From assembly GCA_030611765.1 (NCBI GenBank), contig JAUWPE010000004.1:1-46475 (forward strand): a stretch of DNA of 46,475 nucleotides. The letters are read 5' to 3'. The position numbers and the translations under genes were made by a program. The stretch is from Candidatus Cloacimonadota bacterium. Lineage in GTDB: Bacteria > Cloacimonadota > Cloacimonadia > JGIOTU-2. Positions 5,696 through 43,265 of the stretch are shown in pieces; position 1 is the stretch's first letter; each line of letters starts with the position of its first letter. The notes under the pieces are model-generated. The model was not told the DNA's origin and did no database searches. It was given only the letters and a program-made list of their open reading frames with translations.

Positions 5696-6546
5696 AGATC
5701 GCCGAAAAATATTTCTATTTTTGCTTTGTTTCTGAGCTTCCTGATAAATTGTAATAATTCAAGTTCTCCAGCGATCTTTTCAAGCTGTTTTTTTAGTGAA
5801 CCCTTGATTTCATCATAGGATGGAATTCGCTGTTCTTCTTTCTCAATTAATTTCACAAAATGAAAGCCGAAATCCGTTGGAATGGGACCCGCAATTTGGT
5901 CTTTCTTCAGAGAGAAGATCACATTCTCCAGCTCTTCAACCAGGTCGCCGCGAGTGATGAAACCGAGATCGCCGTTCTTTTTTGCACTTGGGCATTCGGA
6001 GTAATTATTGGCAACATCGCAGAAATCTTCATTCTCATATAATTTTTTACTTACTTCTTCCAATTTTGAAAAAGCTTCTGGGTCACGATTGCTGATCAAA
6101 ATATGACAAATACGGGCGCGTTCCGGATACTGAAGCTGCTCTTTATGGCTTTCATAGTATTCATGGATCCATTCAGGTTCGATATCAACAGAATCCAGAA
6201 ATTGGCTTTTAATATATTCCTTGATTCGAAGCCCGTTCCCGATATTTTCCAATAATTTATCAACTGAAATATTAGATTCTGCAAGGTCTTTGATGAAATC
6301 TTCGTGAGATTCGTACTGGCTCTGGATCTCCTGGAACTGGAAATGGACTGAGCTTTCATCTATGTGAATGTTGCACTTGTTTGATTCTTCCATAAGCAGA
6401 CATGCATCGATCAGATTGTTTATGGCTGTTTCTTTCAGCTGTTTTGATGGCTTCTCAACATGATGCTCTTTGAGAAGCTGAAACAATTCCGCCTTGTAAT
6501 CTGCATGAAAGATTTTGTAATTATTAACTATAGCAACATGCTTCAT
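5692..6546 (-). CDS. parvulin-type (PpiC/SurA-like) peptidyl-prolyl isomerase without signal peptide
   Basis: A 284-residue prolyl isomerase. An N-terminal SurA-N-like helical chaperone segment (about 1-130) precedes a PpiC rotamase domain (about 140-235): ARICHILIS, the acidic loop, FCDVANNYSECPSAKKNGDLGFITRGDLVEELE.VIFSL, then GPIPTDFGFHFVKLIEKEEQ. A helical tail follows. Unlike SurA/PrsA it begins MKHVAIVNNYKI with no hydrophobic signal sequence, so it is predicted cytoplasmic or exported by another route. It overlaps miaA by 23 nt and deoB by 4 nt, which argues for one mRNA. The family call is secure. The client and cellular location are open. Confidence 0.85.
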   Translation of the reverse strand: MKHVAIVNNYKIFHADYKAELFQLLKEHHVEKPSKQLKETAINNLIDACLLMEESNKCNIHIDESSVHFQFQEIQSQYESHEDFIKDLAESNISVDKLLENIGNGLRIKEYIKSQFLDSVDIEPEWIHEYYESHKEQLQYPERARICHILISNRDPEAFSKLEEVSKKLYENEDFCDVANNYSECPSAKKNGDLGFITRGDLVEELENVIFSLKKDQIAGPIPTDFGFHFVKLIEKEEQRIPSYDEIKGSLKKQLEKIAGELELLQFIRKLRNKAKIEIFFGDL

Positions 6547-7483
6547 TGTGTCCCAGAAACTCCATGATTTGATTTTTTATATCAAATAAAGTAAGCTGGG
6601 GAGGAGAGATTGTCAAATGTATTTCTTGTTTATTGAACCATGTGAGCTGTCTTTTGGCATAATTTCTCATGTACTGTTTTATGAGTTCGACGGTTGTATG
6701 CCAGTCATGAATGCCATCAATATGATCAAATAATTCTTTATAGCCAAGTGAATTCATGCCAGGATCATTTCTCGTAAATCCCATTTCAAGCAAATGTTTG
6801 AATTCATCGAATAGGCCATCCCTTATCATCTTATCAACACGGGTATTTATTTTTTCATATAATACTGAACGTTCATCGTTAAGAAAAATTGTGAAATGAT
6901 GATATCGCTTTTCAAGTGCATCTTTTTGCCAATAGGATGAAATTGGCGATCCTGTTACTCGATAAACTTCGAGGGCTCTGGCAATGCGGTTGCCATCATG
7001 CGGATTGATCTTTTTTGCAGCAATAGGATCAACTTCATTCAGCATGTGATGAAGAGTCTGAGCTCCTTTTTCTTCAACTTCTTTCTTTAGTTCATTTCTT
7101 ATAGCAGCAGGAATTGGAGGGATCTTGCACAATCCATATAATAAAGATTTAATATAAAATCCGGTTCCTCCAACCACGAAAGGAATATGGTTATTTTTTT
7201 TTATTTTTGAAACTGCCGAATCAGCTCTTTTCACAAATTCTCCTGCAGTAAATTTTTGATCAGGTGTAATAATATCGATTAGATGATGCGGAACACGAGC
7301 TAATTCTTCAGGAGTCGGTTTTGCAGTGCCAATATTCATATATTTATATATCTGACGCGAATCAGCAGAAATGATTTCAGCAGAGAGATCTTTAGCAAGT
7401 TGTAAAGCAAGTGAAGTTTTCCCCACTCCTGTTGGACCGCAAATGACGATCAGTTTTGGTTGGTTAGCTTTATTTGATTTCAT
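6524..7483 (-). CDS. miaA: tRNA dimethylallyltransferase
   Basis: Adds the dimethylallyl group from DMAPP to N6 of A37 in tRNAs reading UNN codons. It has 319 residues, normal length. The P-loop [13 protein letters not shown] lies near residue 15, followed by SADSRQIYKYMNIGTAKP, PHHLIDIITPDQKFTAGEF and GGTGFYIKSLLYG (substrate binding), then the insertion domain and the C-terminal QLTWFNKQ. It is first in the operon with the PPIase and deoB. Its 5' side borders directly on the REP array at 7503. Confidence 0.96.
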   Translation of the reverse strand: MKSNKANQPKLIVICGPTGVGKTSLALQLAKDLSAEIISADSRQIYKYMNIGTAKPTPEELARVPHHLIDIITPDQKFTAGEFVKRADSAVSKIKKNNHIPFVVGGTGFYIKSLLYGLCKIPPIPAAIRNELKKEVEEKGAQTLHHMLNEVDPIAAKKINPHDGNRIARALEVYRVTGSPISSYWQKDALEKRYHHFTIFLNDERSVLYEKINTRVDKMIRDGLFDEFKHLLEMGFTRNDPGMNSLGYKELFDHIDGIHDWHTTVELIKQYMRNYAKRQLTWFNKQEIHLTISPPQLTLFDIKNQIMEFLGHNEACCYS

Positions 7484-7502: not shown

Positions 7503-8073
7503 GTTCCCAAACGGGGGTTTGGGAACAAGACTTCTTATGGGTTTGGGAACAAGTACATTTTTGGTGGTTTGGGAATAAGAGCATTTTTGGTGGTTTGGTT
7601 AACAAGTACATTTTTTGTTTTTGGGGAGGTTAATAGCTCTCTCGTTCCAAAGACCATATAATTTCTCGCTCCAAAGACCATATAATTTCTCGTCCCAAAC
7701 CCGATGTCGGCTCCTCGTTCCCAAACCCGATGTCGGCTCCTCTTTCCCAAACCCGATGTCAGCTCCTCGTTCCCAAACCCCTGTTTGGGAACAAATACAT
7801 TTTTGGTGGTTTGGTTAACAAGTACATTTTTTGTTTTTGGGGAGGTTAATAGCTCTCTCGTTCCCAAGATTAGTAACTTTCTCGTTCCCAAACCCGATGT
7901 CAGCTCCTCGTTCCCAAACCCCTGTTTGGGAACAAATACATTTTTGGTGGTTTGGGAATAAGAGCATTTTTTGTTTTTTGGGGGATTAATAGCTATCTCG
8001 TTCCAAAGACCATATAATTTCTCGTTCCCAAACCAGATGTCGGCTCCTCGTTCCCAAACCCCTGTTTGGGAAC
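7503..8073. repeat. REP/BIME-type array of GTTCCCAAAC palindromes and half-units
   Basis: This gap of about 600 nt is wholly repetitive. Four perfect palindromes GTTCCCAAAC-n4-GTTTGGGAAC lie at 7503-7526, 7769-7792, 7910-7933 and 8050-8073; the last three are spaced 141 and 140 nt. Between them are 24-26 nt units, each with a CTCGTTCC(CAAA) half-site plus a 10-14 nt linker (e.g. CGATGTCGGCT, GACCATATAATTT). Units switch strand around each palindrome (GGTTTGGGAA-type units on one side, TTCCCAAACC-type on the other). All ORFs the track lists here on both strands are by-products of the repeat. The array directly follows the RAYT gene. Confidence 0.9.
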
Positions 8074-8086
8074 GCTATTATCTATA

Positions 8087-8626
8087 CTATAACTCAAGTT
8101 CATCAATCTTAAAAGGATTATTTTTTCCAGCAAAATTTCGTGCGCTGGAATAATACCAGTCCTCTGGTTCGGCAACAAATCCTCTCTTTACCGGATTGAA
8201 ATGAATGTAATCAATCTTCTGGCGTAACATATTCGTGGAACAAATCAATTTGGGGTAACTCCCCTCCTGCCAGAATTGATAAGTCGAATTTCTTTTATAT
8301 GACTTCTTTAGCATTTTCAATGAATCCAAAATATCATTTTTTTTATCTTCCTCCAGTAATAAAATTATCTCTTTGGCTGTATAACCTTTTATATTCTGAA
8401 TAATTATTTCAATATCCGTTGGATGTGATGCGATCATGTGGAGATGATGATCCATTATTACATAATAAAATATTTTCAAACCCTTTTCATTTCTATAAAA
8501 ATTGAAATTTTCGATGATTATATCACAATATCTTGGATCTGTAAAAAACTTTATTTTTCCTACAACAATCCATGTAATAAAATATAAGTGATCTTGAACC
8601 TCAGAAAATTTATATCTACTTCTCAT
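8087..8626 (-). CDS. REP-associated tyrosine transposase (Y1 HUH, RAYT)
   Basis: A 179-residue single-strand transposase/endonuclease of the IS200-like REP-associated group (TnpA_REP). The HUH metal motif is MDHHLHMIAS. The C-terminal family signature KIDYIHFNPVKRGFV...W.YSSARNF follows, with an upstream YQFWQEGSY-like segment. The family nicks and mobilises REP palindromes. Here the gene is bracketed by palindromes beginning about 13 nt from each end (8050-8073 and about 8638-8662), and the array extends beyond its 3' side, so gene and repeats form one unit. It has no IS-type left or right ends of its own. It is probably a domesticated or slow transposase that propagates the REP family (family knowledge plus inference). 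Confidence 0.92.
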   Translation of the reverse strand: MRSRYKFSEVQDHLYFITWIVVGKIKFFTDPRYCDIIIENFNFYRNEKGLKIFYYVIMDHHLHMIASHPTDIEIIIQNIKGYTAKEIILLLEEDKKNDILDSLKMLKKSYKRNSTYQFWQEGSYPKLICSTNMLRQKIDYIHFNPVKRGFVAEPEDWYYSSARNFAGKNNPFKIDELEL

Positions 8627-8637
8627 GATTTGCTTGT

Positions 8638-8662
8638 GTTCCCAAGCAGGGGCTTGGGAATG
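8638..8662. repeat. REP palindrome on the 5' side of the RAYT gene
   Basis: GTTCCCAAGC-n4-GCTTGGGAAT, one mismatch in the arms. It lies about 13 nt upstream of the transposase start and 37 nt past the purH stop. It completes the bracket around the RAYT gene and is placed to act as a hairpin terminator for purH. Coordinates are good to about one base. Confidence 0.85.
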
Positions 8663-19398: not shown

Positions 19399-19553
19399 GT
19401 TCCTAAACCCCTGTTGGGGAACGATCTTTATTTATATCTACTTTGCGTTCCCAAAGAAGGAACAGTTAAATTTGCCCGCCCTGTGTAATTGCTTTGCACC
19501 ACTTCGTGGATTACACAGGGCAAGCATTTAACGTCCTAAAGCTTTGGGAACGA
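19399..19553. repeat. REP copy plus nested long palindrome
   Basis: An imperfect REP palindrome (GTTCCTAAAC..GTTGGGGAAC, 19399-19422) is followed by a structure of about 107 nt: outer arms TTCCCAAAG/CTTTGGGAAC, next GTTAAATTTGC/GCATTTAAC, a perfect 12-bp stem GCCCTGTGTAAT/ATTACACAGGGC (19478-19521), and CCAC-ttc-GTGG at the tip. It sits 10 nt past the stop of the VCBS/ASPIC gene and could serve as its 3' hairpin. Confidence 0.75.
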
Positions 19554-19563
19554 GAGATTGTAA

Positions 19564-30137: not shown

Positions 30138-30204
30138 CTAATAACAAATAAAATGTCAAAGTATTTTTTTCTTCATCTTCTTTATTTTTTCGATTGCCCC
30201 ACTT

Positions 30205-30264
30205 TGCCGTCTCATTCCCAATCCCCACTTTGCAGTCTCATTCCCAATCCCCAGATTGGGAATG
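30205..30264. repeat. REP array copy (ATTCCCAAT type)
   Basis: Two tandem 26-nt units (CTCATTCCCAATCCCCAC plus linker) end in a palindrome CATTCCCAAT-n6-ATTGGGAATG (30239-30264). It is the same design as the 7.5-kb array, with its own linker (TTTGC(C/A)GT). Confidence 0.8.
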
Positions 30265-30393
30265 TCATCATCTTTTGATAAATCTCTAATACATTAATTT
30301 TGAGAAAGTTAGAATGTAGTTTCATAGGAGAATAGTGCTGATCAGCTATCTTCATAAATCTAAAATCGCTAATCATCATTCATCAATTGTTGC

Positions 30394-30490
30394 GTTCCCA
30401 AACAGGGGTTTAGGAACGAGAAGACTGAAAGGTTTAGGAACGAGAAGACTGAAAGTTTTTGGAACGAGAAGACTGAAAGGTTTGGGAATG
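30394..30490. repeat. REP array copy with three 24-nt units
   Basis: The palindrome GTTCCCAAAC-n4-GTTTAGGAAC (30394-30417) is followed by three tandem units GAGAAGACTGAAAG + GTTTAGGAAC-like half-site. The linker is identical in all three units and differs from other loci. Confidence 0.85.
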
Positions 30491-43067: not shown

Positions 43068-43265
43068 GCATTCTGAACTCCAATCTGTCAAGACTCGAGC
43101 TCAGGGGAGCGTAGCGAAACTGGACTTGAGACGACAACTGTCAGCATTCTGAACTCCGCCCACCTTCGGCGTGTGAAGTCCAGTCTGCTGAGACTGGAGT
43201 TGAGACGAAAAAGCTTGACGCATTCTGAACTCCGCCCACCTTCGGCGTGTGAAGTCCAGTCTGCT
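43068..43265. repeat. family B repeats, 46-nt unit twice plus a variant
   Basis: GCATTCTGAACTCCGCCCAC... (46 nt, ending AGTCCAGTCTGCT) occurs at 43144-43189 and 43220-43265, and a variant begins at 43068. Internal stems are CGCC/GGCG and CCAGTC-tgctga-GACTGG. The CGTGTGAAGTCCAGTC part recurs inverted at about 3152-3170, and TTCTGAACTC recurs at 1-112 and 3263-3421. The 83-residue minus ORF here is not a gene. Confidence 0.8.

Follow-up and report, generated by a model that had tools for sequence, protein, structure and literature searches.

The array at positions 7503-8073 of the window (the whole 46,475-nt stretch of Candidatus Cloacimonadota DNA analysed here) is a new variant of the BIME/REPIN cluster, in which REP palindromes belonging to an adjacent REP-associated tyrosine transposase (RAYT) gene are linked by tandem ladders of half-REPs. 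It is neither an oddity nor an assembly artefact, since related bacteria have ladders of the same design built on other palindrome families. Already known are RAYTs, REPs and BIMEs, as well as REPIN clusters next to RAYT genes; judging from the literature covered, the tandem half-REP ladders are apparently new.

Organization of the array

A 24-nt palindrome, GTTCCCAAAC-N4-GTTTGGGAAC, was found four times in the window (0.00 expected from shuffled sequence); these copies are P1 to P4 in Table 1. The half-site TTCCCAAACC, with at most one mismatch, occurs 28 times against 3.28 expected, a count reached in none of 100 shuffles; the majority of these half-sites lie in the array and some in a second element further along the window. 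A half-unit consists of the CTC foot, the 5' arm and the loop CCC, followed by a linker of 8-11 nt in the place of the partner arm. Between P1 and P4 the half-unit period is 24-27 nt, and TRF reported periods of 26, 24, 26 and 140 among the repeats of the window.

Table 1. Coordinates of the features of the RAYT-associated array and of the second element ('>' and '<' give the polarity of REPs and half-REPs)
Feature	Positions	Strand	Remarks
REP palindrome P1	7503-7526	+	Outer boundary, '>' polarity; tag AAG 7527-7529; polarity set by loop GGGG and right-hand tag
Three '>' half-REP units	7539-7553, 7565-7579, 7591-7606 (span 7539-7606)	+	
Five '<' half-REP units	7641-7655, 7665-7679, 7689-7702, 7714-7728, 7740-7754	-	CTC foot
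REP palindrome P2	7769-7792	-	'<' polarity; CTC foot 7766-7768; also starts the next '>' ladder
Module B, 141 nt	7769-7909		'>' half-unit 7808-7822; '<' half-units 7857-7869, 7881-7895
REP palindrome P3	7910-7933	-	CTC foot 7907-7909
Module C, 140 nt	7910-8049		'>' half-unit 7949-7962; '<' half-units 7997-8011, 8021-8035
REP palindrome P4	8050-8073	-	Outer boundary, 3' REP of RAYT gene; CTC foot 8047-8049
RAYT gene	8087-8626	-	179 aa; HUH H61/H63, W119, catalytic Tyr Y140, N144
5' REP of RAYT gene	8638-8661	+	Single copy, decayed tag (TGA), inverted relative to P4
Second, separate element	30197-30488		<half <half-REP, ~130 nt, REP> half> half> half>; periods 26, 24

The mapped units bear out the claim of an earlier note on this DNA that half-units flip strand around the palindromes: '>' half-units (GGTTTGGGAACAAG) lead away from P1, P2 and P3, '<' half-units (CTCGTTCCCAAACC) lead up to P2, P3 and P4, and the switch lies midway between palindromes (at about 7617-7640, 7833-7857 and 7975-7997). 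The palindrome spacings of 141 and 140 nt given in that note are right, but the first one, of 266 nt, had been left out. Each element reads REP> half> half> ... <half <half <REP, and the array holds three of them, sharing palindromes. When aligned, module A (266 nt) corresponds to B or C (140 nt) plus two '>' units (50 nt), one '<' unit (~24 nt) and a further two '<' units (52 nt); the modules thus differ by whole half-units. The last '>' unit of the first ladder carries a 1-base insertion (GGTTTGGTTAACAAG).

The alternation of REP orientation in repeated modules is that of a BIME, and inverted R> ... <R doublets, alike at several sites and present at several loci, can be folded into one hairpin as in REPINs. 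In single-stranded form a REP> ... <REP element can fold into one long hairpin. Folded as DNA, both strands of the array beat their shuffles by far (z = -8.25 and -8.43), as inverted repeats must. One linker, CGATGTCGGCT, had been described as a small palindrome in itself, which it is not: there is only a 4-bp inverted repeat, CCGA-TG-TCGG, around CGATGTCGGCT, and linker copies reading CGATGTCAGCT break it.

No Rfam family matched within the window, and no similar DNA was found in the plasmid collection. A CRISPR was rejected (there is no constant repeat with variable spacers, and the linkers repeat too); a coding role is unsupported, the open reading frames across the array being mechanical.

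The RAYT and its REPs

The array lies between miaA (6524-7483, minus strand) and an open reading frame that is followed by purH. This reading frame encodes a RAYT, a transposase-like enzyme for single-strand DNA whose kind is known to act on REP palindromes. It scored 104.3 bits against the NCBIfam model REP_Tyr_transpos (cut-off 80) and 22.9 bits against Pfam Y1_Tnp (cut-off 23), and it carries an HUH motif together with one catalytic tyrosine, the marks of the Y1 transposase fold. Its sole sequence match among solved structures is the E. coli RAYT-REP complex (PDB 4er8), which is also the best fold match (E = 2.6e-9) of the predicted model (pLDDT 92). The five residues listed in Table 1 are invariant across 21 relatives; Y140 and N144 align with Y115 and N119 of the E. 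coli protein, as counted on the sequence alignment to 4er8. P4 and the 5' REP flank the gene with inverted polarity, and the same holds in most relatives examined. The source genome (2.23 Mb in 189 contigs) has about ten RAYT paralogues. An IS200/IS605 insertion sequence was considered and rejected, as these paralogues are at most 51% identical and sister species keep the orthologue at miaA-purH.

The 24-nt palindromes are the REPs of the adjacent RAYT. REPs stand on both sides of RAYTs with tags outward, the palindrome stem family tracks the RAYT tree (TTCCCAARC in clade A, TTACCAAKY in B, TTCCAAAAC/TTACAAAAC in C and TGTCAxGGA in D), and each of the source-genome paralogues examined has its own palindromes. 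REP polarity is 5'-CTC-stem...stem-GC-3'. Stems differ between families, yet the CTC foot, which reads GAG on the opposite strand, is kept, with a conservation of 98-100% for type A (n = 50) and 93-100% for type B. This foot stands where canonical (GTAG) REPs have a GT[AG]G head, and because of that difference the biochemistry of the E. coli system applies by analogy only.

Genome-wide palindrome and ladder counts were obtained by pattern searches. The type-A palindrome was found in 15 of the 41 Cloacimonadota genomes searched and in none with the reversed-pattern control. The source genome has 16 copies, an undercount because it is a MAG with broken arrays; Stenotrophomonas has 37-427. The cognate REP is plentiful in the source genome, and its numbers go with the presence of the RAYT: counts are higher in genomes with a clade-A RAYT (rank test within the family, P = 0.002, uncorrected for kinship between species that are not independent). 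Counter to this tie, some genomes without a clade-A RAYT (G012 and G015 among them) have 9-10 palindromes. In a separate RAYT clade (L004, L052, L053, L067 and L069) the genes are flanked by GTGTCATGGA / GTCAGGGA palindromes and no half-REP ladders are evident.

Half-REP ladders in other genomes and at the sister loci

Tandem half-REPs with a foot gave 86 matches in 10 of the 41 genomes and none in the control, and ladders also occur with the type-B stem. The grammar REP> (33-36) half> (24-28) half> ... <half <half <REP (spacings in nt) is found at many loci, in both families and in several genera. Contig C161 of the source genome has it with the half-site GCTTGGTAAAGAG beside a RAYT only 51% identical to the one described here, and ladders also lie far from any RAYT gene. 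Three Bacteroidota relatives (36-37% identity) have full repeats only and no ladder. A third kind of half-unit ladder, CTCATTCCAAGGCTCCAGCC with a period of about 26, accompanies a 40% identical RAYT (G029:C141, L051, 1223-1409 and 2114-2630).

Half-units retain foot, arm and loop GGG, and conservation falls inside the hairpin loop. The period is 23-27 nt in 43 of 46 linker forms (18-30 was searchable, and the forms are not all independent). Linkers are near-identical within an array and unrelated between arrays. The period comes near the 27 nt of foot plus REP, which would suit half-units that are whole REPs with a decayed second arm, the array then being a plain head-to-tail REP tandem. That reading is highly improbable and was rejected, as the linkers resemble the missing arm no more than shuffled linkers do (P = 0.97) and decay would not be expected to leave near-identical linkers within arrays.

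The same site was compared among representatives of sister species, which goes some way to the comparison of unit number and order that the earlier note had proposed. At miaA-purH of G006 and G005 the RAYT orthologues are 79% and 77% identical (miaA, 90% and 81%), and 'Ca. Cloacimonas sp. 4484_140' (G007) has a 78% RAYT. The arrays of G006 and G005 differ in composition and lie on both sides of the RAYT; in the window a single REP stands 5' of the gene. Unit number and order differ between species, and units have been gained and lost. In 4484_140 both ends of the RAYT are broken; the 3' break, at codon 120, leads directly into a half-REP unit. The RAYT remnant of L075 (MVCT01000054.1, 1246-1524) and L049 consists of codons 28-120 only, its 3' break being joined directly to a half-REP unit; this is array-linked gene decay.

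These comparisons also bear on whether the array is a collapsed or chimeric short-read repeat, the reading that the earlier note had named as fatal to its own. Assemblers do fail on such arrays: eight other contigs of the source MAG end inside or beside one, so that copy number elsewhere is underestimated, and one relative's array contains Ns. Against this, three sister genomes, assembled separately, have an array at the same site with collinear flanking genes, and the grammar recurs at many loci and in many genomes. The architecture is therefore real, and an artefact can be set aside as most improbable; the unit number of the window copy is given as assembled.

Known systems and the origin of the ladder

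In the defining arrangement (Nunvar et al. 2010, PMC2817692) a rayt gene stands between inverted REPs, and one third of RAYTs adjoin a BIME of head-to-tail modules. The present locus resembles these units in the RAYT between inverted REPs, in the co-variation of REP and RAYT and in a REP count that tracks RAYT presence; it differs in the CTC foot in place of GT(A/G)G, in the half-REPs reiterated between REPs and in its host phylum, the Cloacimonadota. As in REPINs (Bertels and Rainey 2011, PMC3116915), an inverted REP pair gives one hairpin and tandem clusters lie beside RAYT genes, but here the arms have one to five extra half-REPs (24-28 nt period) and adjacent elements share palindromes. 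The GTAG/CGTC REP superfamilies (Di Nocera et al. 2013, PMC3733652) are likewise tagged palindromes forming inverted dimers, with tags other than the CTC (GAG on the other strand) found here.

Another similar class is TnpA-REP subclass 2.6 (Quentin et al. 2018, PMC6006769), mostly from Bacteroidetes, whose atypical flanking repeats lack GT[AG]G. Points of resemblance are a length of about 179 aa, H-hydrophobic-H, WQ, YIHxNP, atypical flanking repeats and copies of these elsewhere in the genome. The motifs HHLH/NHLH, WQ and YIHFNP and the 179 aa agree with the published table of that subclass, and on this comparison of motifs and length we call the RAYT subclass-2.6-like. The main text of Quentin et al. 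describes no half-repeat ladder. Finally, the E. coli rayT REPtron also has REPs of both orientations and modules of about 100 nt beside rayT, but there every GTAG foot and arm has a partner arm, and half-REPs are absent. In the literature covered, which takes in part of the key RAYT papers, no description of half-REP ladders or of REPs in Cloacimonadota was found. The reiterated half-REPs make the array more elaborate than a plain REP/BIME, as the earlier note had proposed. Its overall interpretation is partly supported; it had missed the RAYT, the polarity of REPs with a CTC foot, the family-wide grammar and the differences of modules by whole half-units.

We consider it probable, with reservations, that the locus is a REPtron, that is, a RAYT with its cognate REPs, the downstream REP having grown into a BIME/REPIN cluster through RAYT-driven gain and loss of units. 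The RAYT would bind foot and hairpin on single-stranded (lagging-strand) DNA, cut near the foot and rejoin the strands. Several identical copies of foot and arm could pair with one partner arm, and cutting and joining in different registers would lead to gain or loss of whole 24-27 nt units; whole modules (140 nt) could duplicate by the same route or by ordinary slippage. That the RAYT makes the ladder by such a reaction, where it would cut and that it is active at its present locus we infer from the E. coli RAYT and the IS200/IS605 paradigm. Expansion by a mechanism acting on folded single strands, an idea of the earlier note, is plausible because the array adjoins a RAYT, an E. coli relative of which has been solved in complex with a REP hairpin.

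The rival to this is slippage after a founder event: the RAYT would have made the REPs, and the ladder would be a minisatellite, started by a chance duplication and extended without the enzyme, through replication slippage or through template switching at hairpins, which are known to stall polymerase. Linkers homogeneous within an array and different between arrays would be expected of such a process, and so would modules differing by whole units. Chance founders, though, should vary in length and boundaries; instead many founders with unrelated linkers would nearly always have yielded 23-27 nt with a half of foot, arm and loop. Moreover, both REP families have acquired ladders, and these point outward from the side of the foot. 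We regard an origin wholly by slippage as possible but doubtful. The likeliest driver of the ladder is a RAYT working on single strands. A period that stays constant while linkers are arbitrary, and a break that falls within the loop, speak for a measured event at the founding; expansion after that founding may well be slippage.

A more specific reaction may be proposed tentatively, although we think it unlikely: a RAYT of the subclass-2.6 kind might join strands at REP hairpin loops after a cut made roughly 8-11 nt outside the CTC foot. If so, ligation to another REP's loop would leave half-REPs whose period is fixed at 24-27 nt and whose linkers are arbitrary, ladders and REP-loop insertions would have a single cause, and a single-strand transposase would have a measured ruler. 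The REP-loop insertions fit loops as joining sites weakly, since other elements are known to insert into such loops. For the way in which RAYTs build REPs and BIMEs, half-REPs may be a record of the product, in a break in the loop, a fixed period and arbitrary linkers, in several arrays beside RAYTs with different REP sequences, and this record offers a concrete cut-and-join model that is testable in vitro. The findings add Cloacimonadota to the range of REP/RAYT systems with a CTC foot, and they carry a warning that half-REP arrays break short-read assemblies.

Several further repeats were observed. A REP at 19445-19554 (plus strand) has a palindromic insertion of ~80 nt in its hairpin loop, and 4-nt REP loops with insertions of about 30-85 nt, often palindromic and thus forming nested REP-like elements, were also seen at L005:698, L015:779, L002:2054, L018:1413, L106:667 and L154:1415. 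The core (130-150 nt) of the second element in Table 1 recurs on contigs C75, C113, C150 and C181 of the source genome, at C75 in a tandem of ~350 nt. Two tandem 76-nt units (90% alike) with inverted ACTGGACTT / AAGTCCAGT ends lie at 43119-43265 and are perhaps another REP-like element.
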